Source: Spongiactinospora sp. TRM90649
GTDB taxonomy: Bacteria; Actinomycetota; Actinomycetes; Streptosporangiales; Streptosporangiaceae
Direction: 5' to 3'
DNA length: 64,000 bases
Assembly (NCBI RefSeq): GCF_029382225.1
Contig: NZ_JARLTC010000028.1
Coordinates: 1 to 64,000 of the forward strand
Within the stretch, counting starts at the first letter, position 1; every line of letters begins with the position of its first letter. The translations under genes were made by a program, and so were the position numbers. The notes under the pieces are model-generated. The model did not search any database, had not been told where the DNA came from, and saw only the letters and a list, made by a program, of their open reading frames with translations. This document shows, piece after piece, positions 14,551 to 58,816 of the stretch.

Positions 14551-14568
14551 GTAAGCACATCAGCTTTC
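14551..14568. repeat. GTAAGC-N6-GCTTAC family site 1
   Basis: GTAAGC-acatca-GCTTTC, 33 bases before the first gene of the left block and downstream of its promoter. One mismatch in the right arm. Confidence 0.75.
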
Positions 14569-14576
14569 ACTGCCAC

Positions 14577-14585
14577 CCCACCCGA
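14577..14585 (+). repeat. CCCACCCGA motif copy a
   Basis: CCCACCCGAGGAA merges into the ribosome-binding sequence GAGGAA ahead of the 14,601 gene. Confidence 0.5.
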
Positions 14586-14600
14586 GGAATGGATTCCGTC

Positions 14601-15218
14601 ATGCCTGCGATGACCCACGCCCTCGCGACAACCGCCACCCGCCGACTGCGCCGCCCCGAGCGGTTCGCCACCCGCGAGCTGGCCGAAACGCTGCTGACCA
14701 CCCTGCGGATGGTGCGCCGCGCCGAGAACGCCCTCCTGACCGGCCCCGGCGCCTGCGAGGACGACGTGCGCGAGGCACTGATCAAGGCTCTGCGCACCGC
14801 CGACTGGCCGCGCGGAATGGCCAACGGCGCCATCGAATTCGCGCTGGCCCACGACGACCTCACCATGGCGCTGGCCATGTACGCCTACGTGGAGGGGCAC
14901 CCCCACGAGACGGCTCAGCCCGAGCCGCGTCAGTTCGTCGTCACCGACGAGCAGGCGCAGGCGATGGCCGACGCCATTGCCACGGCCTTCGGCGCGCATG
15001 GCACCGGCCATGAGCCGTGCGTGCTCGATCCCGACTGGGACAGCGAGCCCGGCCGCGTCCTGAGCTGGGAAGAAGGGCCGTACCGCTGGGCCTGGCTGGT
15101 GCCCGGTGGCGGTGAGGACACCGAGTACGGCCGCACGGTGGCCCCCATCGAGGTCCCCGCCGGTCTGCGGATCGAGCCGATCACCCACTTCAGCGTGCGT
15201 GTGCTGCCCGTCGCCTAG
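14601..15218 (+). CDS. Hypothetical phage-type protein, first gene of the left block
   Basis: 205 residues, no family recognised. The first ~100 residues look helical and charged (RRPERFATRELAETLLTTLR; ACEDDVREALIKALR), and the C-terminal part is beta-rich with SWEEGPYRWAWLVPGGG. ATG 14601 is preferred because the ATG at 14589 would leave one base behind GAGGAA. Position right after the operator-controlled promoter makes it an early-expressed gene; a regulatory or take-over role is possible but not shown. Confidence 0.75.
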   Translation: MPAMTHALATTATRRLRRPERFATRELAETLLTTLRMVRRAENALLTGPGACEDDVREALIKALRTADWPRGMANGAIEFALAHDDLTMALAMYAYVEGHPHETAQPEPRQFVVTDEQAQAMADAIATAFGAHGTGHEPCVLDPDWDSEPGRVLSWEEGPYRWAWLVPGGGEDTEYGRTVAPIEVPAGLRIEPITHFSVRVLPVA

Positions 15219-15282
15219 CGACCGGCCCCGCCCCGGACCGCCGGGCGTCACGGCTCACGACCGTGGCGGGGCGCTCACCACC

Positions 15283-15292
15283 CCCACCCGAA
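15283..15292 (+). repeat. CCCACCCGAA motif copy b
   Basis: Exact copy 31 bases before the helicase ATG and 19 bases before its AGGAGG. Confidence 0.55.
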
Positions 15293-15323
15293 CTCATTCA
15301 TGGCACCGGCCAGGAGGTACCGC

Positions 15324-16760
15324 ATGCCCTCTCCCACCGTGGAACAGACCCGCATCATGGAGGACTTCGTCGCCGGTAAGGCACTTCGCGTCCAGGCCGG
15401 AGCCGGGGCCGGGAAGACGACCACGCTCAAGATGGCCGCTGCGGCCACTCCCCGCCGCAAAGGCCTGTACGTGGCGTTCAACAAGGTGATCGCCACCGAA
15501 GCCGCCGCCTCCTTCCCCGAGAGCGTGAGCTGCCGCACGGGCCACTCACTCGCCTACGCGGCCGTGGGACGCACGTACGCGCGCCGCCTCAAGGCTCCGC
15601 GCATGTCCTCGCACCTGGTCGCCTGCAAGATGGGCATCAACGAGCCGGTACGGCTGGACGAGGGACGCGTGCTCGCCCCGGCACAGGTCGCGCGGGTCGT
15701 CATGGCGACGGTCGCCAACTTCACCCACTCCGACCGCCGCGACATCGCCCATCAGCCCGTCGCCCGGCTGCGCGGCTGGGAGGACGACGACGCGATGGAG
15801 GCGCTCGAACAGGTGGTTCCGCCGCTGGCGCTCAGGGCGTGGGCCGACCTGACGAACCCGCGCGGCGGCCTGCCGTTCAGCCACGACACCTACTTCAAGA
15901 TCTGGTCCCTGGCCGACCCCCAGCTTGCCGCCGACTTCGTGATGGTGGACGAATTCCAGGACACCAACCCGGCGCTGCTGTCGGTCATCCGCGCGCAGCG
16001 CTCGGCACAGATCGTGGCTGTGGGGGACTCCGCGCAGGCGATCTACGAGTGGCGGGGAGCGATCGACGCGATGAACGCGATCGACGGCGTGGAGCGCACC
16101 CTGTCGCAGAGTTTCCGGTTCGGCGAGGCCGTCGCCGAGGAGGCGAACAAGTGGCTGGAGATCCTTGACGCGCCGCTTCGTCTGCGCGGTTTCGAGGCGA
16201 TCAATTCGCGGGTCGCCGAACTGGAGGAGCCGGACGCGATTCTCTGCCGCACGAACGCCGAGGCCATGGCGCAGGCCATGGCGGGTCTCGACAAGGGCAA
16301 GCGCGTGGCACTCGTGGGTGGGGGAAGGCAGATCCGCGCCATGGCCGAAGCCGCTCTCCAGCTCCAGGAAGGGCGAGGGTGCGACCACCCCGAACTGTGC
16401 GCCTTCCAGAACTGGGGCCAAGTACAGCAGTACGCGTTCGTCGAGGAGGACGGCCAGGACCTCCAGGCCATGGTGAAGCTGATCGACGGCCACGGGGCCG
16501 AAAAGATCATCGACGTGGCGGACGCCCTCGACCGCGAGGAAGCCGCTGACCTGATCATCTCGACCGCGCATCGCTCCAAGGGGCGCGAGTGGCACCGCGT
16601 GCGGGTCGCCGGAGACTTCTCCGAGCCCAAGCCGACCGACGACGGGCGGCCCGGCAAGGTCACCCCTGCCGACGCGCGTCTGGCCTACGTCACTGTGACC
16701 CGCGCCCAGCATGTGCTCGACACCGGCGGCCTGAGCTGGGTGGACAAATATCTCGCCTGA
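15324..16760 (+). CDS. UvrD/Rep-like superfamily 1 helicase
   Basis: 478 residues, shorter than host UvrD (~700). Walker A GAGAGKTT at 26-33, Walker B VDEFQD at 208-213, motif III-type GDSAQAIYEWRGA near 233, QSFRF near 256, AHRSKGREW near 414 and motif VI AYVTVTRA near 455. All helicase motifs are present, while the 1B/2B insertions are small, as in phage and plasmid members. AGGAGG sits 6 bases before ATG 15324. It probably unwinds or remodels DNA during replication or recombination of the element. Cytoplasmic. Confidence 0.92.
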   Translation: MPSPTVEQTRIMEDFVAGKALRVQAGAGAGKTTTLKMAAAATPRRKGLYVAFNKVIATEAAASFPESVSCRTGHSLAYAAVGRTYARRLKAPRMSSHLVACKMGINEPVRLDEGRVLAPAQVARVVMATVANFTHSDRRDIAHQPVARLRGWEDDDAMEALEQVVPPLALRAWADLTNPRGGLPFSHDTYFKIWSLADPQLAADFVMVDEFQDTNPALLSVIRAQRSAQIVAVGDSAQAIYEWRGAIDAMNAIDGVERTLSQSFRFGEAVAEEANKWLEILDAPLRLRGFEAINSRVAELEEPDAILCRTNAEAMAQAMAGLDKGKRVALVGGGRQIRAMAEAALQLQEGRGCDHPELCAFQNWGQVQQYAFVEEDGQDLQAMVKLIDGHGAEKIIDVADALDREEAADLIISTAHRSKGREWHRVRVAGDFSEPKPTDDGRPGKVTPADARLAYVTVTRAQHVLDTGGLSWVDKYLA

Positions 16761-16761
16761 C

Positions 16762-16779
16762 GTAAGCACTAACGCTTTC
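16762..16779. repeat. GTAAGC-N6-GCTTAC family site 2
   Basis: GTAAGC-actaac-GCTTTC, one base after the helicase stop codon and 78 bases before the next start. Confidence 0.75.
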
Positions 16780-16857
16780 TCTGCATGCTGGCCCCGCCTC
16801 GGGGGCCGGGGCCAGCAATCCATTCCCCTCCAGTCCCGCTTCACAAAGGAGAACGCC

Positions 16858-17010
16858 ATGACCGACATGAGCCCCGACGCGCTCCGGGGCCTCGCCGACG
16901 CCGACCGCCACGGCATCGACACCGAGGTGCTGCTGCACGTGGACGAACTGCCGGAGGACGAGGCCATCAGGGTGATCGACGAGGTGTTCGGCGAGATCCA
17001 CTTCGACTGA
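16858..17010 (+). CDS. Hypothetical 50-residue acidic protein
   Basis: ATG 16858 follows AAAGGAG at good spacing, and the 50 codons show strong third-position GC. The product is acidic (MTDMSPDALRGLADADRHG to GEIHFD), predicted helical, with no cysteine and no known family. It lies alone between the helicase and the VWA gene, after GTAAGC site 2. Small acidic phage proteins often bind host enzymes or mimic DNA, but nothing specific supports that here. Confidence 0.7.
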   Translation: MTDMSPDALRGLADADRHGIDTEVLLHVDELPEDEAIRVIDEVFGEIHFD

Positions 17011-17032
17011 CCTGGCACAGCACCGAATTCAT

Positions 17033-17042
17033 CCCACCCGCA
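17033..17042 (+). repeat. CCCACCCGCA motif copy c
   Basis: One base differs from the common form; it precedes AAAGG and the VWA-protein ATG by 14 bases. Confidence 0.5.
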
Positions 17043-17056
17043 GAAAGGGATTCACC

Positions 17057-17947
17057 ATGCCCCGATGGCACTTGACCGCCCAGATCCGCCGCCCCAGCGC
17101 CTTTACCGACGCCCTGGGAGCGGCGTTCGTCGGCGCGCTGCCGGTATCCGCGACGGTCGCCGACGCCAACGACACCGGCAACCTGGAGATCGCATTCGAC
17201 GTGGACGCCGGCACGGCCACTGATGTCGTCCAGGTCGCTACGGCGCTCATCGCCCAAGCGATGGGGGAGGTCTTCGGGTCCACGACCCGCGTCAAGTCCC
17301 TGTCGCTGGAACCCATCAAGGACCACGCCACCACCAGGCGCCACATCACCATCGTGCTCGACCGATCGGGCTCTATGGAGCGGGTTCGCGACGACGCCGA
17401 GGGCGGCCTGCACGCCTTCCTCGACGCCCAGGCGGACGTGTCGGCCGAGACCACCGTGTCCCTCGTGTGCTTCGACCACGAGATCGAGATCACTTACGAG
17501 GGCGTGGCACTGAGCGACGTCCCGCCATCTGTCCTTCAGCCACGCGGCCGAACTGCCCTGTACGACGCCATCGGAGAGGCCGTCCACCGCACCACCGAGT
17601 ACATCGGCGGTCTGGACGCCGAGCGGCGGCCCCAGGAGATCGTCGTCGTCATCCAGACGGACGGCAGGGAGAACGCCAGCCGCGAGTACGACCGCAGTGA
17701 GATCAAGCGGTTGATCACCTCCAGGCAGGAGCAGGGCTGGACCTTCGTGTTCCTGAGCGCCACCCCCGACGCGTTCGCGGTCGGTTCCAACATCGGCGTC
17801 CCCCACGCCACCACTGTCCACTACGGAGGGACGAACACCAGGGAGACGCTGACGTCCGCAGGGCACATGGTGGCGCGTGGCAGCCGCACGGGCGACTACC
17901 GCTTCAGCGAGGATGAGCGCGACGCCTCCCGTTGCGGAGACGCGTGA
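17057..17947 (+). CDS. VWA-domain protein
   Basis: 296 residues. A von Willebrand A domain occupies about residues 95-270, with an intact metal-ion-dependent adhesion site: Asp102-x-Ser104-x-Ser106 in VLDRSGSM, a downstream Thr in GRTALYDAI and Asp in QTDGREN. The first ~90 residues are of unknown fold. No signal or membrane segment, so it is cytoplasmic. Cytoplasmic VWA proteins usually work with AAA+ ATPases or in metal or stress systems; none is adjacent. The stop overlaps the next ATG. Confidence 0.85.
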   Translation: MPRWHLTAQIRRPSAFTDALGAAFVGALPVSATVADANDTGNLEIAFDVDAGTATDVVQVATALIAQAMGEVFGSTTRVKSLSLEPIKDHATTRRHITIVLDRSGSMERVRDDAEGGLHAFLDAQADVSAETTVSLVCFDHEIEITYEGVALSDVPPSVLQPRGRTALYDAIGEAVHRTTEYIGGLDAERRPQEIVVVIQTDGRENASREYDRSEIKRLITSRQEQGWTFVFLSATPDAFAVGSNIGVPHATTVHYGGTNTRETLTSAGHMVARGSRTGDYRFSEDERDASRCGDA

Positions 17948-18372: not shown

Positions 18373-18434
18373 CCCCAAAGACGTGGCGGCTCGGCCCCTT
18401 CCCCTCCAGCCGGGCCGCCACCCAGGCAAAAGTG

Positions 18435-18444
18435 CCCACCCGAA
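18435..18444 (+). repeat. CCCACCCGAA motif copy d
   Basis: Exact copy, 10 bases before the ATG at 18455, merging with TTGAGGA. Confidence 0.55.
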
Positions 18445-18454
18445 TTGAGGACGA

Positions 18455-20415: not shown

Positions 20416-20428
20416 AAGGGCACACTTC

Positions 20429-20962: not shown

Positions 20963-21001
20963 ACGACCAACCTTGTGGCCCTGCCCAGCGGGCGCCACAA
21001 G

Positions 21002-21019
21002 GTAAGCCCTAAAGCTTAC
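21002..21019. repeat. GTAAGC-N6-GCTTAC family site 3
   Basis: GTAAGC-cctaaa-GCTTAC, both arms perfect, ending two bases before GAGGAGG of the next gene, so bound protein would sit next to the ribosome site. Confidence 0.8.
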
Positions 21020-21030
21020 GAGGAGGATCG

Positions 21031-24551: not shown

Positions 24552-25039
24552 GCGCAGTGACCTGGACGCCCGTCTGGGTGAGCTGTACGCGCAGGTTCCG
24601 CAGCCGGGTTGTAAGGGACTGTGCTGGGAGTCGTGCGGGCCGATCGAGATGAACCCCGCGCGAGCGCCAGCGGATCCGCCAGGAGACCGGCATCAAGATC
24701 CCTTCCGCACCCGAGGCGTTACAGCGAGAGCAGTTCCAGTGCCCGGCGCTCGACGACGCCCGGCAGTGCCGGGCCTACGAGCAGCGGCCGATGCTGTGCA
24801 GACTGTGGGGGGCGGTGGAGTGGATGCCGTGCACCTTCGGCTGCCGCCCTGCCGAGGGCCTGCTGCCGGACAGCGACGGCTACCGATTGCTGCGTGAGTC
24901 GCTGGCCGTGGGGGCGCCCGCAACGCCGGACGACGCACGACGCACGGCTGACATCGAGGCCCGAGTCAAGGATCCATCGACGCGCTCGGCGCTGCGCCAG
25001 TACATCAGGCAGGCCAGGCGGGGACGGTCGATGCCGTAA
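24544..25039 (+). pseudogene. YkgJ-like cysteine-cluster protein gene with a frameshift
   Basis: The first ~38 residues (LDARLGELYAQVPQPGCKGL, CWESCGPIEM) and, in another frame, RQRIRQETGIKIP, CRAYEQRPMLCRLWGAVEWM and CTFGCRPAEG together form a complete YkgJ/UPF0153-type protein that binds metal through conserved cysteines. Skipping one base near 24,660 in a GC-rich run restores a continuous frame to TAA 25037. It is either a true frameshift mutation, a sequencing slip, or, less likely, programmed frameshifting. The stop overlaps GTAAGC site 4. Confidence 0.7.
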
Positions 25040-25053
25040 GCGTTTGAGCTTGC
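25036..25053. repeat. GTAAGC-N6-GCTTAC family site 4
   Basis: GTAAGC-gtttga-GCTTGC, one mismatch, starting within the last codons of the YkgJ-like gene and 31 bases before the HU-like gene. Confidence 0.7.
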
Positions 25054-25083: not shown

Positions 25084-25386
25084 ATGGGTGCTTCGTCAAA
25101 GCTGAACCGGCGCGGCCTCGCCGAGGCGATCGCAGGCATGACGGGACACGACCACGAGCAGGTGGACGAGGTCCTCAAGGCCGCCACGTTGGTGATCAAG
25201 AAATGTGTCGCTGACGGTGGCACTGTCACGATCGCCGACTTCGGCACGTGGCGGCTGGGCCACCGGAAGGCCAGGATGCATCAGGTTCCCACGACGGGTG
25301 CGCCGGTGCCGAAGCCGGAGCACTGGAAGCCCGTGTGGACGCCTGGTAAGGGATTCCGGACGGCAACTCGCGCCTACGGTAGCTAG
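25084..25386 (+). CDS. HU-family DNA-binding protein
   Basis: 100 residues, the usual HU size. N-terminal helices NRRGLAEAIAGMTGHDHEQV, the saddle strand TVTIADFGTWRLGHRKAR, and C-terminal TPGKGFRTATRAYG are typical, although the DNA-binding arm is Pro/His-rich rather than Arg/Lys-rich. Probably bends element DNA for replication or recombination. AAGGGAG precedes the ATG. Last gene of the left block, followed by a hairpin terminator. Confidence 0.85.
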   Translation: MGASSKLNRRGLAEAIAGMTGHDHEQVDEVLKAATLVIKKCVADGGTVTIADFGTWRLGHRKARMHQVPTTGAPVPKPEHWKPVWTPGKGFRTATRAYGS

Positions 25387-33264: not shown

Positions 33265-34068
33265 CTACCCCTCAGTCCACGAAATGGTTCCGACGCCTCC
33301 GAGGAAGAACCCTTCGTGTGGAAGGTGCTCGTACCTGGGCAGGCCGAGATCGGGCCGCCACTCAGCGACATCCACCAGGCCCGGGGGATGGAGTTCTGGC
33401 ACGTGCGGGGCGAGCAGAGCGGTCACCTGCTCACGTGTGCGTGGGAAGATCGGTGTCGGCGATGCTTCGTAGATCTTGCGCGCCGCCTTCGATGCCTCCG
33501 GCGACATGTCCTCGTCGCACGCGTGCGTGAGCACCACGACACTTCCTTTCCCCAGGCGCTCGGCGAACCGGCCGAGGACCCCAACCAGCAGGTCGTCCTG
33601 CTCCACGAAGTGGGCGACAGCGACAGCGATAAGCCCAGTCGGTCGATCAGGGCGCAGAAGTTCGCGTGCATCAGCGCTGTCCAGGATCGCGTCAGGCTTT
33701 CGCAGATCCCCCTCCACCATGGCGACACCGGGGCCCGCCAGCAGGGCACGGCCATGCGTGAGCACCACCGGATCGTTGTCCACATACACCACGCGCGCGG
33801 CTGGGTTCACCCTGCGGGCGACCTCGTGCACGTTGTCCTGGGTGGGCAGGCCGGAGCCGATGTCGAGGAACTGCTCGACGCCGGCCTCGGCAAGGGTGCG
33901 CACGGCACGGCCAAGGAAGTCCCGGTTCTGCCGCACGGCTCGCCGGACATTGGGGCTCGCCTTCTCCAGCTCCGCGGCGGCCACGCGATCGACGGCGTAG
34001 TTGTCCTTACCGCCGAGCAGGAAGTCGTAGACCCGAGCCGCATTCGGGTGGGACACATCGATCATCAT
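33265..34068 (-). CDS. SAM-dependent methyltransferase, DUF574 type
   Basis: 267 residues. The opening HPNAARVYDFLLGGKDNYAV and the AdoMet motif FLDIGSGLPTQDNVHEVA at about 73-90 are diagnostic of this actinobacteria-specific family; VVYVDNDPVVL follows. The methyl acceptor is unknown for the family. ATG 34068 has no clear ribosome site, so a short or absent leader is likely. Divergent from the XRE regulator across a 212-base region with an operator-like repeat. A second member is at 37,585. Confidence 0.88.
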   Translation of the reverse strand: MMIDVSHPNAARVYDFLLGGKDNYAVDRVAAAELEKASPNVRRAVRQNRDFLGRAVRTLAEAGVEQFLDIGSGLPTQDNVHEVARRVNPAARVVYVDNDPVVLTHGRALLAGPGVAMVEGDLRKPDAILDSADARELLRPDRPTGLIAVAVAHFVEQDDLLVGVLGRFAERLGKGSVVVLTHACDEDMSPEASKAARKIYEASPTPIFPRTREQVTALLAPHVPELHPPGLVDVAEWRPDLGLPRYEHLPHEGFFLGGVGTISWTEG

Positions 34069-34222
34069 TTGTCCGCTCTGGCCACAATTGCGGCCAAGAC
34101 GTGTCTGAGCGGCGCCGGCAGAGGGAGTGCGGTACCCATGTCTGAACTGGCCTCTCGCGTGGGGCAGGTGGTAGCGGGCGACCCAATGGTGAAGGGCAGT
34201 TTTCGACGATGCCAACAGGGGT

Positions 34223-36114: not shown

Positions 36115-36126
36115 CTGTTTTTGCGC
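36115..36126 (-). promoter_or_regulatory. 12-mer GCGCAAAAACAG upstream of the RHH-like gene
   Basis: Exact 12-base match, in the same orientation relative to the gene, to the sequence ahead of the repressor-like gene at 42,049. Probably part of a shared control site. Confidence 0.5.
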
Positions 36127-36142
36127 AAGCAGGCCCGCTTAC
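36125..36142. repeat. GTAAGC-N6-GCTTAC family site 5
   Basis: GCAAGC-aggccc-GCTTAC, one mismatch in the left arm. It touches the 12-mer and lies between divergent genes, the only site of the family in the cargo region. Confidence 0.6.
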
Positions 36143-36243
36143 GTCACCGATCCGCTCTGGCAGGACCGATGCGTCATCATGTGATCAGGTGACGTGAGCC
36201 CTATCGCTTGCGTTCTGCCTGCACGAAAGGACTCGCACCCCTC

Positions 36244-37584: not shown

Positions 37585-38391
37585 ATGAATCCGGAATCCG
37601 GTCAGCGTGAAATGGCTCCGCCCGGCGTGGACCCCACTGTGCCGAGCGTGGCGAGAATGTACGACTATGGACTCGGCGGCACCACTAACTACAGGATCGA
37701 CCGCGAGATCTCCGACAAGCTCTGGGCGGCGGCACCAGACCTGCCCGCGCTGACTCACGACGGACGCCGCTTCCTGGAGCGGGTCGTGCGCTTCATGGTC
37801 GAGGCCGGAGTCGACCAGATCATCGACATCGGGTCCGGCCTGCCCACCGCGAACAACGTCCACCAGGTCGCGCAGGCGATCAACCCGGCTGTACGCGTCG
37901 TATACGTGGACAACGACCCTACGGTCCACATTCACGCGCAGGCCCTGCTGTCCGGCGACGAGCGCACGCGCTACGTCGATTCCGACGCGCGCACTCCGGC
38001 CCAGATCATCAACCACCCCCACACCCAGCGGCTGATCGACTTCACCCGGCCGGTCGGGCTGATGTACCTGTATCTGCTGCACTACATCGCGGATGCCGAT
38101 GATCCGTACGGGTCCGTCCGGCGCGTCCTGGACGAGCTGGCAAGCGGCAGCTACCTCGTCATTTCCCACGTGACCCAGGAGGGAACCGACCCGCACCTAC
38201 ACGCCACCTTCCAGAAGGTGTTCTCAGGGGTCATCTTCCGGACCAAGGCCGAAATCCTGCGCTTCTTCGACGGCTGGGACATCATCACACCTCCGGGCAT
38301 GGTCAACGTCTCCGAGTGGAGCGCCACCGGGGACGCGCCGGGGGAGCCACGAGCACTACGGGCGTGGACGGCGGTGGCGATCAAGCCGTGA
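37585..38391 (+). CDS. SAM-dependent methyltransferase, DUF574 type, second copy
   Basis: 268 residues. VPSVARMYDYGLGGTTNYRI and IIDIGSGLPTANNVHQVAQA are the family marks, with VVYVDNDPTVH, as in the 33,265 gene; the two are clearly divergent, so not a recent duplication. AAAGGA precedes the ATG. Its last codons overlap the last codons of the SARP gene on the opposite strand by 11 bases. Confidence 0.88.
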   Translation: MNPESGQREMAPPGVDPTVPSVARMYDYGLGGTTNYRIDREISDKLWAAAPDLPALTHDGRRFLERVVRFMVEAGVDQIIDIGSGLPTANNVHQVAQAINPAVRVVYVDNDPTVHIHAQALLSGDERTRYVDSDARTPAQIINHPHTQRLIDFTRPVGLMYLYLLHYIADADDPYGSVRRVLDELASGSYLVISHVTQEGTDPHLHATFQKVFSGVIFRTKAEILRFFDGWDIITPPGMVNVSEWSATGDAPGEPRALRAWTAVAIKP

Positions 38392-40939
38392 TGACGCTCA
38401 GTGCCGATGCGGCGAACTGCTCGTAGGTGCGATCTCCTCGCCTGGTGCTGATCTCCCGCCCCGTCTCAACGGCGGTCTGACAGGTTGTCGCGGCCTCGTC
38501 CGTCCGCCCCAGGGCATGCTCGATCAAGACCAGTGTGCGAAGAGAGGCGACCTCGGCGTAGTCGTCCCCGGCGGTCTGGGCCAGCGTCAGCGCCATGCGA
38601 GCGTCCTGCTCCGCCTGAGCCAGCAGGCCCGGATCGTTCTCACCGGCTGTCTGGGCCATCTCGTGGCGGCAGTGGGCGCGCAATGCCAGCGCACGCGCCC
38701 ACGACCGTCGGTCGACCAGTCGTTGCAGTACCTCGGCACAGTCGTTCAACATGGGCACGGCTCGCAGCGGTCCGCCTTCGGTGGCGGCGACCAGTGCGGC
38801 GGCTCGCAGCCGGGCTTGGGCCCCCAGGCGGTCGTCGCCGGTCTCCACGGCGATACGCGTGATCACACGCCACATGTCCTCGGCGTCGCGAGACCGGCCG
38901 CTGCGGTTCAGATGAGCGGAGATCCGCAGAGCGATCCCGAAGGCCAGGCGGAACCGGCGCTCGGCCAGTTCCATCCGGATCACGCCGAAAATCTGCGTGG
39001 CCTCGGCGGTGAGCCAGCCCTCGGGATCGGAGGCGACCAGTTCCCAGGCCACCTCGGGGATGAGGTCGATCGAGGTGTCCATCGTGGACGGCGGGGCGAA
39101 CCACGGCTCGCCCGGCGTGGCCGCCGCCGCCCGGTCGGCGAGCAACAGCCATCCGGTCAGCAGCCGATGTGTGGCCACGTCGCGCTCGTCCGGCCGGTCG
39201 GCGAGCCGCCGCTCGGCGTACTCACGGACCAGGTCGTGCATGCGGTAACGCGGATGGCCGTGGGCGTCGGCGCCGGCGGGCAGCACCAGATTGTGCGCAT
39301 TGAGGGCGGCCAGCGCGTCTTCGCCGTCCCCCTTACCGATCAGCATGTCCGCCAGCCACATGGGCCAAGAACCGGATCCGGCCAGGGACAGCACGCGCAG
39401 CGCGTGCCGGACTTGTTCCGATAGGGCGTCATAGCTGTCGGCAATGCTGGCTGAAACGGCCACATCCCCATCGGTCAGGCCCGCCAGCCGATCGTGCAAC
39501 CGGGTGGCCAGCAGCCCGATCGGCCAGTGTGGATGCGCCGTCAGCCTGCCTGCGGCGATGCGCAGCGCGAGTGGCAGGTCGGCGCAGGCGTCCAGGATCG
39601 CGTCGGCCGCGCTCGGCTCGGCGTCGATGCGGTCGGCTCCAATGAGCTCCGCCAGCAGGTGGCGGGCCTCGTCGCGGCGCAGCGGGTCAAGCGTCATCGA
39701 GCGGATACCGGGGCCGCTCAGCCGGGGGCGGCTGGTGATGAGAACGGCGCAGCCCGGTGTGCCGGGAACGAACAACCCGCCCTGGGCGGCGCTCGCCACA
39801 TCGTCGATGACCAGCAGGACCTTGCGGTCGGCCAGGACCGATCGGAGAAGGGCCGAGCGTCCGGCGGTGGACGCGGGGATGTCGGCGGCCGGCACACCGA
39901 GCAGGACGAGTTGCTCGGCGAGCGCTTCTCCGACCGCGACCGGCCGTCCCGACATCGCTCCCAAGTGCACGAAGATCTGGCCGTCCGGGAACCGCCGCCG
40001 CACCCGGTGACCGAGGTGAACGGCGAGAGCGGTCTTGCCGACGCCGGGCATGCCGGTGATGTTGATCACTGGTACGGCCGCGCCGGACGCGGGAACGTGG
40101 GTGAGGATGGCGGTGATCTCCGCCAGGCGGCCGACGAAGTCGGGCAGGTCGGCCGGGAGTTGGGCGGGGATCACTCGCCGCGTCGCGATGACGTCGGGTG
40201 TAGCGGCCGGGCGTGGCTCGTGCAGCACGTCGGCCGCGATGTCGTCATGCAGCCGACGCAGCCGCCCGCCCGGATCACTTCCCGTTTCCCGGCGTAAGAG
40301 AACGGCGAAGGCGTCATAGTGCCGAAGGGCATCAACCCGATCTCCCGCCCGATACAGGGAGTCCATCAGAGCCGCATGCAGGGCCTCCGATAGCGGATCG
40401 TCCTGGAGCGCACGTCGCACCGCGGTGAGAGCATCGCGATGCCGACCCAGCGATGTCAGCGTCTGGACCAGTTCCAGACGGGCGTCGCGATGCTGGCGCA
40501 AGAGTTCGTCCCGCACTCCGCGAAGCAGTGACGAGTCATCCGGCATGTCCGGCACCGGGGGATCACCGAGCAATTCCACCGCCCGGCCGAGAAGATGTGC
40601 CCTGACCACGGCCTCGGATGCGCCCTCGGCGGCCGTGACAAGGCGGCGAAACTCGGTCAGATCAAGCGCGTCGTCATCGCCCAACACGATCCGGTATCCA
40701 GCCGATCCGCCGGGCGGTATGCGGCCAGGCAGCAGACGGCGCAGTTCGGAGACGACCGTCTTCACGGCGCCGTCGCGACCGTGATCATCTCCCCATACGC
40801 CTTCGGCCAGTTCGGCGCCGGACAGTCCGCGATCGTGCAGAGCCAGCAGGGCGCACAGCACGCGGCGCTGAAGGGGGGACAAGGTGACCGGACCTGCGTG
40901 GTCGATGACGCCGACCTGCCCGAGAATGTGGAACTGCAT
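38381..40939 (-). CDS. Large SARP-type regulator (OmpR-like wHTH, BTAD, NB-ARC, TPR)
   Basis: 852 residues. Winged helix at ~1-85 (LSPLQRRVLCALLALHDRGL), bacterial transcriptional activation domain at ~95-240, an NB-ARC ATPase with Walker A GMPGVGKTALA near 295 and VLLVIDDV near 370, then helical TPR-like repeats to the end. This is the AfsR layout; AfsR-like proteins activate secondary metabolism or developmental genes. Finding one within an integrated element suggests it drives cargo or host genes. Possible targets in the window: the divergent 41,056 gene or the kinase/radical SAM run. Confidence 0.88.
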   Translation of the reverse strand: MQFHILGQVGVIDHAGPVTLSPLQRRVLCALLALHDRGLSGAELAEGVWGDDHGRDGAVKTVVSELRRLLPGRIPPGGSAGYRIVLGDDDALDLTEFRRLVTAAEGASEAVVRAHLLGRAVELLGDPPVPDMPDDSSLLRGVRDELLRQHRDARLELVQTLTSLGRHRDALTAVRRALQDDPLSEALHAALMDSLYRAGDRVDALRHYDAFAVLLRRETGSDPGGRLRRLHDDIAADVLHEPRPAATPDVIATRRVIPAQLPADLPDFVGRLAEITAILTHVPASGAAVPVINITGMPGVGKTALAVHLGHRVRRRFPDGQIFVHLGAMSGRPVAVGEALAEQLVLLGVPAADIPASTAGRSALLRSVLADRKVLLVIDDVASAAQGGLFVPGTPGCAVLITSRPRLSGPGIRSMTLDPLRRDEARHLLAELIGADRIDAEPSAADAILDACADLPLALRIAAGRLTAHPHWPIGLLATRLHDRLAGLTDGDVAVSASIADSYDALSEQVRHALRVLSLAGSGSWPMWLADMLIGKGDGEDALAALNAHNLVLPAGADAHGHPRYRMHDLVREYAERRLADRPDERDVATHRLLTGWLLLADRAAAATPGEPWFAPPSTMDTSIDLIPEVAWELVASDPEGWLTAEATQIFGVIRMELAERRFRLAFGIALRISAHLNRSGRSRDAEDMWRVITRIAVETGDDRLGAQARLRAAALVAATEGGPLRAVPMLNDCAEVLQRLVDRRSWARALALRAHCRHEMAQTAGENDPGLLAQAEQDARMALTLAQTAGDDYAEVASLRTLVLIEHALGRTDEAATTCQTAVETGREISTRRGDRTYEQFAASALSVITA

Positions 40940-41055: not shown

Positions 41056-41559
41056 GTGATCAAGGTGCACGACGGCATCAGCATGCACAGCGTCGTGGGC
41101 GTCTTCCAGGAGTTGGCCGACGCCGGGCGCCGCCCGGCCGGTGAAGGACTGGAGCTGCTCGGAGAGCTTGCCCGCCAGCGAGACGAGCTTGCGGCCCGCG
41201 CGCGGGCACAGCAGTTGGCGATCGAACTGCTGATGGGCCATGTGATCGTGGCCTTGCGTGGGCAGTGCCCGGCCGTGCTCGGGTCGGTGATCGCGCAGGC
41301 GATCGGCCGCGACGGCTCGACGGTCTCGCGCCTGGCCCACAGATCCGGCGGGCCAAGCCTGCGGGCGGGGACCGGTCGGCGAGGCGGGGCGGCCGGGAGT
41401 GGCGACAGGGCATTGCTCCGTAAGGCGATCGAGGCCGAGCGCGCGACGTTGCTGGCGACGGCCGGCGCTGGGGCTGAACGTGCTGCGGTCGTCGCTGCCG
41501 AGATGGACGCCTTCTGCATGAACTATCTGCCGCGCCGACGTGTCAGTTCTTGCGCATGA
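41056..41559 (+). CDS. Hypothetical protein
   Basis: About 167 residues from GTG 41056, behind GGGACGAG. An HTH-like segment lies at ~72-97 (AVLGSVIAQAIGRDGSTVSR) with an Arg/Gly-rich loop after it, so it may bind DNA. Divergent from the SARP gene across 116 bases, and overlaps the 3' end of the repressor-like gene by 17 bases. Not recognised. Confidence 0.6.
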   Translation: MIKVHDGISMHSVVGVFQELADAGRRPAGEGLELLGELARQRDELAARARAQQLAIELLMGHVIVALRGQCPAVLGSVIAQAIGRDGSTVSRLAHRSGGPSLRAGTGRRGGAAGSGDRALLRKAIEAERATLLATAGAGAERAAVVAAEMDAFCMNYLPRRRVSSCA

Positions 41560-42049
41560 TCCGGACCTGTGTGGCGTGCATCTCGTACATGGCAACGGCT
41601 TGGGCGGTCAGCGCGGCGGCCATCGCTTCATGCTCCCGCTGTGTCACCGGAAGGGCGCGGATCTCCTCGATGGCCGCCTCAAGCCAGGTGCGCAGCCCGG
41701 CTGGCAGATTCTCCATCTCTGGAGCGGCGGCTTCGTGGCCCGATGTGAGGCGCGCACGGAACAGTGCGGCGGCCTCGTGCGCTCCGGCCGCGTCCAGATG
41801 GTCAGGGGTGATGTTGTCCAGGGCGCCCTCATCCGACAACACCAGGGCCATCGTCGCGACGCGCGGTGGTTTGCTGAGCACCACCTGGTCGCCCTTCTCA
41901 GCCGCGTCCCACGTATTGCGGGAGAACCGGCCGCCGGAGATCCTTGCCGCCCGCCGTGCCGCCTCGTTCACCGACAGGGCGTCCAGCCTGGCCTCCCGTG
42001 CGCGCACCAATAGCCTGGCCAGAGCGGCCACTGGAATGTCGTCGGCCAT
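41543..42049 (-). CDS. Repressor-like protein with XRE-type helix-turn-helix (candidate immunity repressor)
   Basis: 168 residues from ATG 42049 behind GGGAG. Residues ~20-70 read as an XRE-like fold: ALSVNEAARRAARISGGRFS, RNTWDAAEKGDQ, then PPRVATMALVLSDEGAL, the pattern seen in small actinophage repressors. The C-terminal half is helical (TWLEAAIEEIRALPVT). It is divergent from an excisionase-like gene across a 200-base region with three TTGCGCGC sites, the classic repressor/early-gene arrangement. Confidence 0.6.
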   Translation of the reverse strand: MADDIPVAALARLLVRAREARLDALSVNEAARRAARISGGRFSRNTWDAAEKGDQVVLSKPPRVATMALVLSDEGALDNITPDHLDAAGAHEAAALFRARLTSGHEAAAPEMENLPAGLRTWLEAAIEEIRALPVTQREHEAMAAALTAQAVAMYEMHATQVRIMRKN

Positions 42050-42094
42050 GCTGTCTCCCTGAGGCTGCTGATCGGCGTTCAAAGCATCGATCTT

Positions 42095-43127: not shown

Positions 43128-43558
43128 CCAGCGAGCGGAAGCTGGAGCTGGCGCTGGCCGAGCACCTGGAGCAGATGGAGGCCGCGCACGAGATGGCCGA
43201 GTGCGGCTCGACGGCGAACCAGTTCACGCCCGCACAGGTCGGCCGTCTCAACGGAGGCATCCAGCACATCTACCGCTTTGGCAACGGCTACGGGGCTTCG
43301 GTCGTCAACCACGCTTTCAGCCATGGCGTGGAGCTGGCCGTGCTGAGTTGGGCCCGCCCTGACTCCCCGCTCGGCAGGTACGAGCTGACCTACGACACCC
43401 CAGTCACCAGTGACGTGATCGGGCACCTTACGCCCGAGCGGCTTGAGGGGCTGCTCGGCCGGATCGCCGCCCTGCCGCCCGCCGAGTCGGCAGTGCCAAG
43501 CGCTGAGCCCACGGCGATCGAGCCCCCGTCTGCTTCCACCACCGAGGGGGGCCAGTAG
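43124..43558 (+). CDS. Hypothetical phage-type protein
   Basis: 144 residues from GTG 43124. N-terminal helix KLELALAEHLEQMEAAHEMA, central beta-rich GNGYGASVVNHAFSHGVELA, and a Pro/Ser/Glu-rich tail. No family recognised. Its TAG overlaps the next GTG. Confidence 0.68.
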   Translation: MTSERKLELALAEHLEQMEAAHEMAECGSTANQFTPAQVGRLNGGIQHIYRFGNGYGASVVNHAFSHGVELAVLSWARPDSPLGRYELTYDTPVTSDVIGHLTPERLEGLLGRIAALPPAESAVPSAEPTAIEPPSASTTEGGQ

Positions 43559-44295
43559 TGGGCTACGACATGACCTGGCGTCGCATCGACGACAGCGAGC
43601 GGGAGGCGGTCGCCGAGGCGCGGGTCGCCTGGGACGCGGCAGTGAAGGCACGGGACGCCCTTCCTCGCGAGGAGGCGGGCACCTTCGACTCGGCCAAAGC
43701 GAAGGAGCTCGGCGACTGGGACGCCCACGATGCCCACAACGGCCGTACGGAGCGCTACCGCAAGGCCCAGGACTCGGTCATGGCCGCCTCGCGCCTGATG
43801 GACGACGTCCACACGTCGTACTTCCGGCTGAACATCTGGGGGATGGGCCTCTATCGCGAGCTGATGCTCCAGCTCGGCATGGCGTTCGATGACGAACCCC
43901 ATCCTGCCTGGCCCAAGGTCGAGGACTACGGCGTCACGAACCAGCAGGTGTGGGCGGTGGAGGACCCCAACGATCATCCGCAGGAGTACGCCGCCATCAC
44001 TCCCGAGGTGATGCAGCAGGTGCTCGCCTACCAAGGTGAGCACGAGCGGGTGCTGTCCTGGCACGGCTTGGAGGTCCCCGGCCTTCCGCTGCACAAGTTC
44101 GGCAGCAACGACGGCTGGATCGTGCTGCCGGTCGAGTGTGAGGCGGCCGTGCGTATCTGGCGTAAGCATAAAGGCTTGCAGAGTGAGGCGGCCGTGCGAG
44201 CAAGGCTCGGCAGCGACGATGCGTTCGCGTACTGGCTCACCTGGATCGCCTTCCTCGAAGGCGGCGTCACGCACAACGGATTCGAGGTGTGGTGA
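43558..44295 (+). CDS. Conserved phage-type hypothetical protein
   Basis: 245 residues from GTG 43558. YDMTWRRIDDSEREAVAEAR opening, helical middle and LEVPGLPLHKFGSNDGWIVL, the last recurring in actinophage proteins that combine a structural core with a C-terminal helical bundle. Function unknown. GTAAGC site 6 lies inside its 3' part. Confidence 0.7.
   Translation: MGYDMTWRRIDDSEREAVAEARVAWDAAVKARDALPREEAGTFDSAKAKELGDWDAHDAHNGRTERYRKAQDSVMAASRLMDDVHTSYFRLNIWGMGLYRELMLQLGMAFDDEPHPAWPKVEDYGVTNQQVWAVEDPNDHPQEYAAITPEVMQQVLAYQGEHERVLSWHGLEVPGLPLHKFGSNDGWIVLPVECEAAVRIWRKHKGLQSEAAVRARLGSDDAFAYWLTWIAFLEGGVTHNGFEVW
44162..44179. repeat. GTAAGC-N6-GCTTAC family site 6
   Basis: GTAAGC-ataaag-GCTTGC inside the 3' part of the preceding coding sequence (codons for RKHKGL), 116 bases before the nuclease gene. 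Unlike most copies it lies wholly within a gene. Confidence 0.6.
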
Positions 44296-49135: not shown

Positions 49136-49470
49136 GCAGGCCTTCTATGCTCGCGCTCGGCGTGCTCCTAGCCGCGCTTCTGGCCGGCTGCGGCGACATC
49201 CGTCTGGAGCCGAAGGTGTCGGGCGTGGTCATCGGACGGGAGTACGACCCGCCCGAGCGCAAGCCGAAGAAGTCCTGCCGGACCACAGGCACCGGCGGCA
49301 AGGCGAGAACCACCTGCTCGACCACGTACCTCACCGAGCCCGCGGAGTGGGAATTGACCGTCGCGCCTTTCGCAGGCGGCCCCGCCGCCGAGTTAAAGGT
49401 AAGCCATAGCGCTTACGCCAGATGCCCCGAAGGGGCCGTATATCCCGACTGCGCGATTGGAACCCCATGA
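49132..49470 (+). CDS. Small lipoprotein
   Basis: 112 residues from GTG 49132. Signal peptide with lipobox LLAGC, lipidated Cys at about residue 20 (LGVLLAALLAGCGDIRLEP). The mature part has a CRTTGTGGKARTTC loop likely closed by a disulphide. Exposed on the outer face of the membrane. Phage lipoproteins can block superinfection or DNA entry; no direct evidence here. GTAAGC site 7 lies in its 3' part. Confidence 0.78.
   Translation: MSRPSMLALGVLLAALLAGCGDIRLEPKVSGVVIGREYDPPERKPKKSCRTTGTGGKARTTCSTTYLTEPAEWELTVAPFAGGPAAELKVSHSAYARCPEGAVYPDCAIGTP
49399..49416. repeat. GTAAGC-N6-GCTTAC family site 7
   Basis: GTAAGC-catagc-GCTTAC, both arms perfect, in the last 25 codons of the lipoprotein gene, 51 bases before the next start codon. 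Confidence 0.75.
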
Positions 49471-51682: not shown

Positions 51683-51693
51683 AAGGACAGCCC

Positions 51694-53660: not shown

Positions 53661-53665
53661 TCACC

Positions 53666-53938: not shown

Positions 53939-53970
53939 TTTCCGTCCCACCTCATCGAAGGAGAGCAGCC

Positions 53971-54195
53971 ATGACCAAGCACGCTGACGTAAGCACTCAC
54001 GCTTATGTCACGGTCGCCGAGTTCGCCGAACGGTTCGGCCTGTCGAAGATGACCGTCTACCGGGCGGTGCAGTCGGGGGACGTCCCGGCCATCCGGATCG
54101 GGCGGTCCTACCGGATCGCGAAGGCGGTCGTCGAGGAATTCGACCGCCGAGCGGGGGCGACGCCGCCCCGAGCCCCCATCCAGTCGGCGGCGTGA
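53971..54195 (+). CDS. Excisionase-family wHTH DNA-binding protein
   Basis: 74 residues. YVTVAEFAERFGLSKMTVYR at ~12-31, then GDVPAIRIGRSYRIAKAVVE: the complete excisionase (SinR/MerR-like) motif. AAGGAG is 9 bases before ATG 53971. GTAAGC site 8 overlaps codons 7-12, so the protein might bind its own gene. GTGA overlap with the next gene. Confidence 0.82.
   Translation: MTKHADVSTHAYVTVAEFAERFGLSKMTVYRAVQSGDVPAIRIGRSYRIAKAVVEEFDRRAGATPPRAPIQSAA
53989..54006. repeat. GTAAGC-N6-GCTTAC family site 8
   Basis: GTAAGC-actcac-GCTTAT, one mismatch, inside the first codons of the excisionase-family gene. Confidence 0.7.
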
Positions 54196-55807: not shown

Positions 55808-56022
55808 CCGCCCGCGACCCCGCCAGCCGTCACGTCGGCCGCTGCCCGGCCTGCACGAAGGTGCGGTATCCCAGCCGCCGCGCCGCTCGCGCCGCAGCGC
55901 GCCGGTTGTACCCGGGCACGAACATGCGCGCCTACCCCTGCGGCGGCTACTGGCATCTCGCCCGCAACACGCCGTGGCGCATCCACGGCGTCGCCGCCTA
56001 CGCCATCACGACCAGGAGCTGA
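55804..56022 (+). CDS. Hypothetical small basic Zn-binding-like protein
   Basis: 72 residues. CPACTKVRYPSRRAARAAAR, then MRAYPCGGYWHLARNTPW: cysteine and histidine positions plus the CGGYWHL segment are typical of small actinobacterial proteins of unknown function. Basic, so possibly nucleic-acid binding. Overlaps the clamp stop by 4 bases. Confidence 0.7.
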   Translation: MTARDPASRHVGRCPACTKVRYPSRRAARAAARRLYPGTNMRAYPCGGYWHLARNTPWRIHGVAAYAITTRS

Positions 56023-56025
56023 CCC

Positions 56026-56745
56026 ATGAAGAACAGGATCTGGTACGACACGGAGTTCCTCGACACCGGCCGGGCGATCCATCTGATCTCCATCGGCCTG
56101 GTGTGCGAGGACGGCCGCGAATACTACGCGGTCAACGCCGACGCGCCCTGGAACGCCATCGCCCAGCACCACTGGCTGCCTGACAACGTGGTGTCCCAGT
56201 TGCCCCTGGCCGGGCCGATCGGCCGAGCCGCCTTCACCGGGTGGGCCTCCTTTCAGATCGACCGAAAGAACAGCGCCGTCAAGCCGCGCCAGGTGATCGC
56301 CAACGAGACGCGCGACCTCATCCTGGCGACCCCCAGGCCGCGTCTGTGGGCCAACTACAGCGCCCATGACCATGTAGCGCTGACCCAGCTCTGGGGCCCG
56401 CTCACCAGCGCGCCGCAGGGCATCCCGTGGCGCACGAACGATCTTCAGCAGGAGATCGAGCGGTTGGAGGCGGCGGGCCTGCTGGACCGGGCGAGCCTTC
56501 CCCGCCAGCGCGAGGGAGAACACCATGCCTTGGCGGACGCCCGGCACAACCGCGAGGTGCATCTGTACCTCGATCGGTTCGACGCGCTGGCCGCATGGCA
56601 GCACGCCACCCTGCGGCTCGTCGAGCGGATCGTGGGCGATCAGACGGCGCTGGATGCGGACGCCACCACGCAGATACGGGCCGCCCTGTTCACCGCCTCG
56701 CCGGACTTCGGCCACGAGGCGGATCGGGAGGCCGACCATGGCTGA
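56026..56745 (+). CDS. 3'-5' exoribonuclease, Rv2179c-like (DEDDh)
   Basis: 239 residues. RIWYDTEFLDTGRAIHLISI gives the first acidic pair (YDTEF), NYSAHDHVALTQL the second Asp, and HHALADARHN the His/Asp pair. This fits the Rv2179c-type RNase T-like family of actinobacteria, which includes phage members. Possible roles are RNA turnover after infection or trimming of primers. Three bases separate it from the previous gene. Confidence 0.82.
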   Translation: MKNRIWYDTEFLDTGRAIHLISIGLVCEDGREYYAVNADAPWNAIAQHHWLPDNVVSQLPLAGPIGRAAFTGWASFQIDRKNSAVKPRQVIANETRDLILATPRPRLWANYSAHDHVALTQLWGPLTSAPQGIPWRTNDLQQEIERLEAAGLLDRASLPRQREGEHHALADARHNREVHLYLDRFDALAAWQHATLRLVERIVGDQTALDADATTQIRAALFTASPDFGHEADREADHG

Positions 56746-57208
56746 GCGCTATCGCGTGCTCGTCACTGGCAGCCGAACGTGGCGCGATGAGACCGCCGTG
56801 CGCGAGGCCATCGCGTCGGTCGTCGCGGCGCGCGGCCCGCAGCATGTCACCATCGTGCACGGTCACTGTCCCACGGGGGCCGACGCGATGGCCGATCGCA
56901 TCGCCATCGCATGGGGCGGCGGGCTGATCATCGAGCGTCACGCAGCCGATTGGGACGCTCCCTGCGTTCCGGCCTGTCGTCCCGGCCACCGGCGTACCCG
57001 CTCCGATGGCAGCACCTGGTGCCCGGCCGCCGGGATCTACCGCGACACCGCGATGACCCAGACCGGCATCGGCGAGGTGCTGGCCTTCATCGACCCGTGC
57101 GCGAAGCCGCGCTGCCGAACGTCCGGGCCGCACGGCTCGCATGGCGCAAGTTATACCGCTGACCTGGCACAGCGAATGGGCATACCGGTGCGGCGGTGGC
57201 CACGATGA
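56738..57208 (+). CDS. SLOG-superfamily DUF2493/YspA-like protein
   Basis: 156 residues. YRVLVTGSRTWRDETAVREA and HVTIVHGHCPTGADAMADRI are the nucleotide-binding strands of this DprA/LOG-like Rossmann family. A cysteine-containing tail (IDPCAKPRCRTSGPHGSHGA) follows. SLOG proteins sense or process nucleotides, and some act in defence or counter-defence. Overlaps the exoribonuclease gene by 8 bases and the next ATG by 4. Confidence 0.82.
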   Translation: MAERYRVLVTGSRTWRDETAVREAIASVVAARGPQHVTIVHGHCPTGADAMADRIAIAWGGGLIIERHAADWDAPCVPACRPGHRRTRSDGSTWCPAAGIYRDTAMTQTGIGEVLAFIDPCAKPRCRTSGPHGSHGASYTADLAQRMGIPVRRWPR

Positions 57209-58365
57209 GCGCCAAGGACGTCAGGAAGCTCATCAAGGAGGCGCGCGATCTCAAGCTGATCTGCGAGGAGATGGGCGATCGCTGGAAGATCACCAATCCC
57301 GTCACCGGCTTCTTCCGCTACATCCCCGGACGGGCGATCGGCCGGGGGCTGGCCAACGCCAAGACGACCATCCGTCACGTCAAAGAAGGCGGGGTCGACG
57401 CCCCGGCGCCCATGCGCGCAGCGGTCGGCGATCCCACCCAGCGCGAGCAGCAGGTCGGCATCGAGGGGCACAGCGTGGCCACGCTGCTGCTGCGCTACCT
57501 GGAAGGCGGCGGCCACGCCGACGTGCGCGGCGGGCTGCTGCACCTGACCGGCCCGCCGGAACTGGAACCGATGGCCGCCGTTCTGCTCACCCACGAGGCC
57601 GAGGTGACCGCCCTGGTCATGACCGCCCGGCGTGTGCCCGCGCCGCCCGAACTCGCCCCACCCGTCACCCCACCCGAGACGACGCCAGCATCATCCCTGG
57701 AGGCCCCCGTGCCGCGCATCCGCGACGCCGCTCACGTTCAGGCACGCCCTGACATCGCCGCCGACGCACGCACCCTGTACGAACTGCTGCGTGAGCAGGC
57801 CCGTGAGCAAGGTGACGAACCGGGCGCCAACGCCGGCGTCATGGGCGTGCTCTGGGAAGGCGCGATGTCCTCCCTGATGCGGGCGGTGGCCCCCGAGTGG
57901 GACGACTACCACCGCCAGCAGGTCAGCCTCTACCTGGAACAGAGCGGCCACACCCGCTGCCAATCACGCAACAGCCGCCCTCCGATCTGGTGGCTGGCCG
58001 AGACGTGGAATGACGGAGGACTCACCATCAGCCGACGTGGCGATAGAAAGAAGCCCGCCCCCACCCCTGCGGCGCTGGCCCGCCAGGCGGCTCCGCCAGC
58101 CCCACCGCCCGCACCTGCGACCGCCGTCGTGAACGGCGCAGGCGGCCCAGGTAACGCGCTGAACCTGCTCAAGGCCGTCGAGCAGCGCATCAGCGACGCC
58201 GAGCGGCGGGCGAAGACCGCCGAAGCCGAGCGCGCCGACGCCATCGGCGAGCGCGACCAGGCGCTCGCGCTGCTCGCCGACGCCATCGAGGAACGCGACG
58301 CGGCCAAAGCCGAACTGTCCGCGATCAACACCTTGTTCACGTCCATCACCGGAGGCACGACATGA
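57205..58365 (+). CDS. Hypothetical protein with HicA-like N-terminus and C-terminal coiled coil
   Basis: 386 residues from ATG 57205. The first ~55 residues (AKDVRKLIKEARDLKLICEE, RWKITNPVTGFFRYIPGR) resemble HicA/YcfA-like double-stranded RNA-binding folds but lack a clear catalytic His. Next are Pro-rich linkers, a middle domain (WEGAMSSLMRAVAPEWDDYH) and a C-terminal coiled coil (ERRAKTAEAERADAIGERDQ). Possibly a scaffold. Not a free-standing toxin, since no antitoxin is adjacent. Confidence 0.6.
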   Translation: MSAKDVRKLIKEARDLKLICEEMGDRWKITNPVTGFFRYIPGRAIGRGLANAKTTIRHVKEGGVDAPAPMRAAVGDPTQREQQVGIEGHSVATLLLRYLEGGGHADVRGGLLHLTGPPELEPMAAVLLTHEAEVTALVMTARRVPAPPELAPPVTPPETTPASSLEAPVPRIRDAAHVQARPDIAADARTLYELLREQAREQGDEPGANAGVMGVLWEGAMSSLMRAVAPEWDDYHRQQVSLYLEQSGHTRCQSRNSRPPIWWLAETWNDGGLTISRRGDRKKPAPTPAALARQAAPPAPPPAPATAVVNGAGGPGNALNLLKAVEQRISDAERRAKTAEAERADAIGERDQALALLADAIEERDAAKAELSAINTLFTSITGGTT

Positions 58366-58802
58366 GCGAGCCCTACGACATCCACCTGGCCGACCAGCTC
58401 GCCGCCGCCATCGCCCAGAGCCGCCAGATGATCCGCTCCCTGGACACCCCAGCGAGCAGGGTGCGGCCGGGTGTACCACCATGGGTGGCCGACAAATGCG
58501 AGCAGTTCCTGCGCGACCACCTCGACAAACCTCGTGGCTGCCTGCACCTGGAGCACCCGCAGCCGTTGTGGGGCTTCACCTCGCTGTCCGGAGCCCTGCT
58601 GTGCCGCGGTTGCATGGGCTTCTTCATGCTCGTCAACCCCGTCGCGCCCTGCGAGCGTTGCGGCGCGGAAGGACCGGAGGGCTTCTACGGCCTGGTGAAC
58701 ACCGGCGGTGTGCTGACGCTGATCTACGCCGTGTGCGGCCCCTGCAAGGAGATGATCAGCCCCACCGTTGCGGACCACGGCGGCCCGTCGGAGGCCATGT
58801 AA
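58362..58802 (+). CDS. Hypothetical zinc-binding protein
   Basis: 146 residues. CLHLEH, LLCRGC, PCERCGAEG and CGPCKE give four cysteine pairs, a likely double zinc ribbon. ATG overlaps the preceding TGA. Its TAA forms part of GTAAGC site 9. Family not recognised. Confidence 0.72.
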   Translation: MSEPYDIHLADQLAAAIAQSRQMIRSLDTPASRVRPGVPPWVADKCEQFLRDHLDKPRGCLHLEHPQPLWGFTSLSGALLCRGCMGFFMLVNPVAPCERCGAEGPEGFYGLVNTGGVLTLIYAVCGPCKEMISPTVADHGGPSEAM

Positions 58803-58816
58803 GCACTAGCGCTTTC
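58799..58816. repeat. GTAAGC-N6-GCTTAC family site 9
   Basis: GTAAGC-actagc-GCTTTC, overlapping the stop codon and 78 bases before the next gene. Confidence 0.75.

Follow-up and report, generated by a model that had tools for sequence, protein, structure and literature searches.

We analysed a window of 64,000 nucleotides, positions 1 to 64,000 of contig NZ_JARLTC010000028.1 (C38 in our coordinates) of Spongiactinospora sp. TRM90649, family Streptosporangiaceae. The window contains the left part of a prophage of about 105 kb (C38:12275 to about 117126) that is bounded by att repeats. Genes for terminase, portal, major capsid, tape measure and tail proteins lie at 72-105 kb, and replication genes are also present. 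Dispersed through this element is a family of palindromes of the form GTAAGC-N6-GCTTAC, two of which stand at the 5' end of a gene for a predicted tandem ribbon-helix-helix (RHH) protein. We describe here the distribution of these sites in the prophage and its relatives, and the proteins that might read them.

A first reading of the window, made from the letters of the sequence only (the sequence-only reading), had listed nine palindromes with a fixed six-base spacing and had proposed that they bind a regulator encoded by the element. All nine are found where it had placed them, those at 21002 and 49399 with perfect arms and the other seven with one mismatch, but the sites at 13050, 36194 and 63999 had been overlooked (Table 1). 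A preference for centres near ACTAAC, also remarked on, exists but is weak. Scanning the 9.13-Mb genome with the 18-mer gave 15 sites with at most one mismatch, all on C38 between 13050 and 111370, and zero in the remaining 8.9 Mb of the host genome; an equal density in the host chromosome, which had been named as an observation that would overturn the proposal, was thus not found. The reversed pattern gave 3 sites in the same genome scan. The window holds 11 sites with at most two mismatches against 0.65 expected, a number reached by 0 shuffles. When gaps of 0 to 29 were scanned inside the element, a gap of 6 gave 15 sites and each other gap 0 or 1, which bears out the fixed spacing. With a symmetrised 24-bp weight matrix, 21 sites are recovered in the element. 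The form of the site is a 24-bp two-fold palindrome; an asymmetric form of about 13 bp was tested and did not describe it, and distances between neighbouring sites showed no significant regularity (Stouffer z -1.2). The first 12 kb are free of sites, as had been noticed, because the left end of the prophage is the att repeat at 12275.

Table 1. Sites, genes and boundaries of the prophage. Plain positions refer to the window; positions with the prefix C38 refer to the contig.
Feature	Position	Strand	Remarks
Left att repeat CCTGCTTTAATGCGGGGCATGGCAGAGCA	12275..12305		Direct repeat, adjoins integrase gene; left end of prophage
Serine integrase, 630 aa	12394..14286	+	Pfam Resolvase E=3.8e-15; left end of prophage
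Palindrome, one mismatch	13050..13067		Within integrase gene; arms 11/12 conserved in sister prophage G001
Palindrome, one mismatch	14551..14568		
Palindrome, one mismatch	16762..16779		Directly 3' of stop of 15300-16760; conserved in G001
Palindrome, perfect arms	21002..21019		
Palindrome, one mismatch	25036..25053		39 bp 5' of HU-like gene 25084-25386
Candidate regulator, tandem RHH, 198 aa	35503..36099	-	AlphaFold, PDB comparison, orthologs, site association
Palindrome, one mismatch	36125..36142		Centre 34 bp upstream of RHH start codon
Second palindrome, two mismatches	36194..36211		Centre 103 bp upstream of RHH start codon
XRE-like putative repressor	41543..42082	-	Conserved in relatives; 5' end without palindromes
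Palindrome, one mismatch	44162..44179		Within 43558-44295; conserved in G001
Palindrome, perfect arms	49399..49416		
Palindrome, one mismatch	53989..54006		5' end of 53971-54195
Palindrome, one mismatch	58799..58816		Supplies the TAA stop codon of 58362-58802
Palindrome begun at window end	63999..64000		Full site C38:63999-64016, runs past window
Sites beyond window (centres)	C38:65307, 77633, 103472, 106251, 110180, 111362, 116806		
ParB_N-domain protein	C38:72109-72720 = L011:8109-8720	+	Upstream of packaging genes; conserved in several relatives
Site (centre)	C38:87507		3' of capsid gene
Site (centre)	C38:90186		5' of major tail protein gene
FtsK/SpoIIIE-like protein	C38:112563-114734		In prophage
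Right att copy	C38:117098		One-base indel relative to left copy

About 25 distinct relatives, all prophages of Streptosporangiaceae (31 collected sequences in all), were screened with a palindrome search that presupposed no word, the control being the identical word at other spacings. Automatic seeds gave wrong motifs for G008, G011, G012, G192, G205 and G199, mainly of an AT-rich group, and also for G182 (G numbers are our labels for relatives or their genomes), and in such cases the seeds were taken from known sites. The hosts belong to Nonomuraea, Streptosporangium, Planomonospora, Thermocatellispora and Sphaerimonospora; the last four are genera of the Streptosporangiaceae, as the family label shared in our search also indicates. 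Each relative has its own element-wide palindrome family, with 5-30 sites per sequence and fewer on incomplete contigs. What they have in common is a frame and not a word: GC at half-site positions 4-5, with outer bases specific to the phage. From the centre outwards, the half-site reads [A][C/n][C/n]GC followed by the phage-specific bases, and the words include GTAAGC, GCAAGC, GCTAGC, GATAGC, GGAAGC, GAATGC, GTTGGC and others. The outer bases are TTAC in the window phage and its sister G001, TTGC in G006, G007, G328, G171 and G162, TAGC in G005, G016 and G324, TATC in G009, G010, G013, G194 and G224, TTCC in G015, TACG in G004, CAAC in G200, ATTC in G218, TGGC/TGAC in G182 and G160b, and AT-rich and mixed in G008, G011, G012, G018, G172 and G199.

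In a motif-swap control, 23 of the 25 GCTAGC-N6-GCTAGC sites of the G324 genome lay at the prophage locus; in G169, whose prophage code is GCAAGC, sites of the GCTAGC type numbered 1 in the prophage and 6 elsewhere. Between the window phage and G001 the arms are kept at 10-12 of 12 positions while spacers, and flanks at most sites, are more diverged; at the 36125 site all 12 arm positions are conserved, and the spacer and outer flank have diverged. Across the relatives, site positions are conserved while the sequence of the sites changes, so the lack of conservation that would also have spoken against the proposal did not occur. In Nonomuraea basaltis (G160) at least three prophages of this kind coexist (G006, G010 and G160b), each with a different code, as expected if the codes set compatibility.

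The sites are dispersed and mainly intergenic, as are stoperators of the L5 type: in 16 phages, 150 of 214 were intergenic against 41.8 expected, and in short codirectional gaps they lie at a median of 15 bp past the upstream stop and 40 bp ahead of the downstream start. Of 26 distinct phages, 22 have a site centre 36-42 bp 5' of the start of the major tail protein gene, and in most phages a further site lies at the capsid gene, either 36-38 bp upstream of it or shortly past its end; the HU-like gene has a site in front of it in G004, G007 and G015 as well. The sequence-only reading was also right about gene ends and overlapped stop codons, the sites at 58799 and C38:87498 each supplying a TAA stop. 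The sites are polar, with the transcription-upstream arm closer to consensus at 102 sites and the other arm at 40 (p=2e-7); the ratio is 86:35 without capsid and tail leader sites and 54:19 for intergenic sites away from those leaders, and is reversed in G018 (3:10). Orientation is tied to the direction of transcription, as in L5-type sites, although more weakly than for an asymmetric site; a leave-one-out orientation test was weak (108/184), and the comparison of arm quality was used in its place. No -10-like hexamer recurred at a constant distance from the sites, and promoter overlap was rejected on this ground; a sigma-70-like promoter was likewise absent from the 5' region of the RHH gene. 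In most phages, the leader of the major tail protein gene continues with a GCATGC-like stretch and a ribosome site.

Inverted repeats at gene ends and in leaders might act as RNA stem-loops, serving as terminators or as processing or stabilising hairpins, and the tail leader does keep an inverted repeat in four phages that lack their own motif there. However, shuffling arms between sites revealed no excess pairing (z -3.0 to +0.2), and mismatches showed neither compensatory nor wobble bias, pairs tolerated in RNA not being favoured (95 wobble against 122 anti-wobble). Palindromy falls to background past half-position 12, and all sites within one phage share a single word. Because the arms do not co-vary, the sites are DNA sites; the stem-loop is largely refuted as a general account by the arm-shuffle and wobble tests, and we regard it as very improbable.

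Of the proteins considered, the RHH protein has the closest association with the sites. Its AlphaFold model contains the beta-alpha-alpha motif of the RHH fold twice per chain (strand 61-68 with helices 69-82 and 86-101; strand 139-146 with helices 148-161 and 165-180), with a predicted local distance difference test score mostly of 84-94 across both motifs. Among solved structures it comes nearest to F-relaxosome chains (Z 9-10), which we take to be TraY, followed by single-chain Arc (Z 8.1) and by AvtR (Z 6.1); the top matches consist of tandem or fused RHH chains. Orthologs were detected in 37 of 343 genomes of the family, largely on contigs with capsid genes, and an order-wide search returned genomes of the same family only. 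Of the 31 collected sequences, 24 contain one, and the other seven are contigs of 26-64 kb. When the range from -320 to +100 of the start was considered, a phage-specific site was found at the 5' end of the RHH gene in 21 of 21 distinct prophages, against 1.78 expected. RHH strand residues differ among phages with different motifs, which hints that the beta ribbon may bind DNA specifically. The RHH alignment is too diverged for profile searching; a tblastn search with two members against 50,697 phage records found no relative, and the regulator consequently looks undescribed in cultured phages. The gene is seemingly doubled at G182:C74:64191-65000 and G160:C14:96351-97166, each with two matches per frame of 279-283 aa.

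The reader could instead be the XRE-like repressor or another DNA-binding protein of the phage, with the sites at the RHH gene merely marking it as a member of the regulon. The XRE-like protein is as widespread as the RHH protein (25 sequences), and its divergence correlates equally well with that of the motif: in Mantel tests, motif distance correlated with RHH distance at r 0.64 and with portal, terminase and XRE distances at r 0.65-0.66. Since these correlate equally, covariation does not single out RHH, and we dropped it as proof. At the 5' end of the XRE-like gene, sites were found in 3 of 20 cases against 1.72 expected, which is chance level, and the near-universal XRE-like protein, suggested earlier as a possible reader, was rejected as the cognate regulator. 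The winged and other helix-turn-helix proteins put forward with it (42250, 42897, 53971 and 53244) were not found in most site-bearing relatives in a BLAST-level search. A GntR protein was also rejected, for lack of a consistent link to the sites or of conservation, judged by gene content and by positions in this prophage and G006 only. A reader other than the RHH protein is, in our view, unlikely.

These results support the earlier proposal of binding sites for an element-encoded regulator, distributed like stoperators or the extended start-associated sequences (ESAS) of mycobacteriophages. The palindromes are probably operators of a global regulator encoded by the element, for which the tandem RHH protein is the best candidate. 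Both RHH motifs of one chain are predicted to fold into a single DNA-reading unit. In the 24-bp palindrome the centres of the half-sites are separated by 12 bp, and a pair of chains would read one half-site each. The association in 21 of 21 prophages suggests that the protein represses its own gene through the sites at its 5' end. In the lysogen it would occupy about 20 other sites, many of them in short codirectional gaps, in early and late operons. Bound there, it may block or dampen passing or starting RNA polymerase in the manner of a stoperator, as we infer from site position, polarity and the lack of promoter signatures. The outer bases of the half-site have diversified between phages and give each phage or group its own address, which is expected to set superinfection immunity. 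Polar sites in gaps, the lack of a promoter signature, sites at the regulator's 5' end and a phage-specific code together fit an autoregulated, stoperator-like silencing system, the most likely arrangement as judged from sequence.

Two other roles for the sites have to be weighed against silencing. The RHH protein might be an activator or timing factor of early and late lytic transcription, boosting capsid and tail genes from sites about 40 bp upstream. These two structural genes are needed in bulk, and AvtR, likewise built of tandem RHH motifs, serves as repressor and activator alike (PMC5569661); but the missing -10-like hexamer and the many sites within operons or genes speak against activation, and we consider it rather improbable. 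The sites might also serve partition, packaging or chromosome organisation, like parS or KOPS, instead of transcription control. Plasmid transfer does involve RHH proteins, TraY among them, and the prophage encodes both a ParB_N-domain and an FtsK/SpoIIIE-like protein (Table 1). The sites, however, keep to the starts and ends of genes and to the 5' end of the RHH gene, and their polarity follows local transcription, which makes this highly unlikely.

Several points weigh against silencing by the RHH protein, the Mantel result being one of them. Pfam RHH_10 (E 0.004, 3 of 8 members) and RHH_1 (E 0.01, 2 of 8) match below their curated cut-offs. The range of -320 to +100 was chosen after the first cases had been seen, gene starts come from a home-made caller, and the polarity counts take in homologous sites that are not fully independent. 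The tail leaders of G328/G014, G182, G160b and G200 keep an inverted repeat that is not the phage's own motif, and at the major tail protein leader specifically the RNA may have a role. The fullest version of the silencing model is put forward tentatively, and we would not give it even odds: that this temperate phage family keeps lysogeny by a tandem-RHH roadblock at about 20 polar palindromes per genome, some within the structural operon, and that a half-site code of at least eight specificities lets one host carry several mutually compatible prophages.

Stoperators of cluster A phages (L5, Bxb1, Trixie) occur in many copies genome-wide, mainly in one orientation to transcription and with a site upstream of the repressor gene, and their phage-specific motif drifts with repressor and genome distance (PMC6550527); stoperators have also been reported in R4-like Streptomyces phages (PMC10276819). 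The prophage sites resemble them in dispersed copies, transcription-linked orientation, a site upstream of the regulator gene and a phage-specific motif. The cluster A repressor, however, is a monomer with a helix-turn-helix and a stoperator domain, and the 13-bp stoperators that it reads are asymmetric (PMC9283540), unlike the candidate tandem-RHH reader and the 24-bp palindrome described here. The ESAS of cluster K are imperfect inverted repeats with a left arm nearer to consensus, subcluster-specific, with conserved gene association and no support for RNA pairing; they have 17-bp arms and a variable spacer, are tied to the 13-bp start-associated sequence (SAS) and to non-structural genes, and their reader was not identified in that study (PMC3203893). 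Left-arm bias, a clade-specific code and the absence of RNA pairing bring our sites close to ESAS; fixed spacing, the absence of SAS and the inclusion of capsid and tail genes set them apart. The SAS GGGATAGGAGCCC had 1 match in the window at no more than two mismatches against 2.2 expected, and the gap scan inside the element gave fixed spacing only, unlike the variable spacer between the two 17-bp inverted repeats of ESAS. As neither the asymmetric 13-mer, the SAS link nor the variable spacer was found, the prophage sites fall outside the L5/R4 stoperator and ESAS classes.

In the Bacillus prophage SPbeta, the repeated intergenic element SPBRE, a 15-bp motif in about ten promoter regions, is bound by the element-encoded master repressor MrpR, which has a tyrosine-recombinase-like fold (PMC10516654). 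Our prophage is likewise a large serine-recombinase prophage with a repeated intergenic element, but the predicted fold of its candidate regulator differs from that of MrpR. The genome of the archaeal virus AFV6 contains eight potential sites for its self-repressing protein AvtR, and these are conserved at homologous genes (PMC5569661). The RHH protein shares with AvtR tandem motifs in one chain, although AvtR belongs to an archaeal filamentous virus, recognises an AT-rich imperfect repeat and has 14% identity over the aligned part. The RHH fold is also that of Arc of phage P22 and TraY of the F plasmid. Arc acts at one operator region, and TraY at oriT and its own promoter; element-wide sites are not known for either. 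Conserved inverted repeats of phiC31 were a further comparison, on which our literature search returned nothing.

The RHH-based variant of stoperator-like silencing appears to be new. Detailed work on silencing of the stoperator type concerns a single phage group and a single repressor fold. The roughly 25 natural prophages supply candidate regulators with matching operator codes at equal positions, which makes the evolution of RHH DNA recognition and of immunity specificity directly testable. If the model is true, diversified half-site codes permit several mutually compatible prophages per host.

Genes for S-adenosyl methyltransferases (PF04672), at 33265-34215 (-) and 37657-38391 (+), flank the RHH gene region, and a SARP/STAND-like regulator with Trans_reg_C, BTAD and NB-ARC domains lies at 38381-40939 (-). 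A 577-aa protein at C38:107725-109458 (L013:3725-5458, minus strand) matches phrog_850, 'RNA-binding protein'. Streptomyces phage Hiyaa (MK279841; L121/L122), related through its capsid protein, has neither an RHH nor an XRE homolog. It carries its own palindrome family, ACTTGCGC-N3-GCGCAAGT, at 25.7-81.3 kb, with 17 sites at no more than one mismatch and 31 at no more than two in six-base arms; nearly all are intergenic, mostly about 50-80 bp upstream of annotated gene starts.

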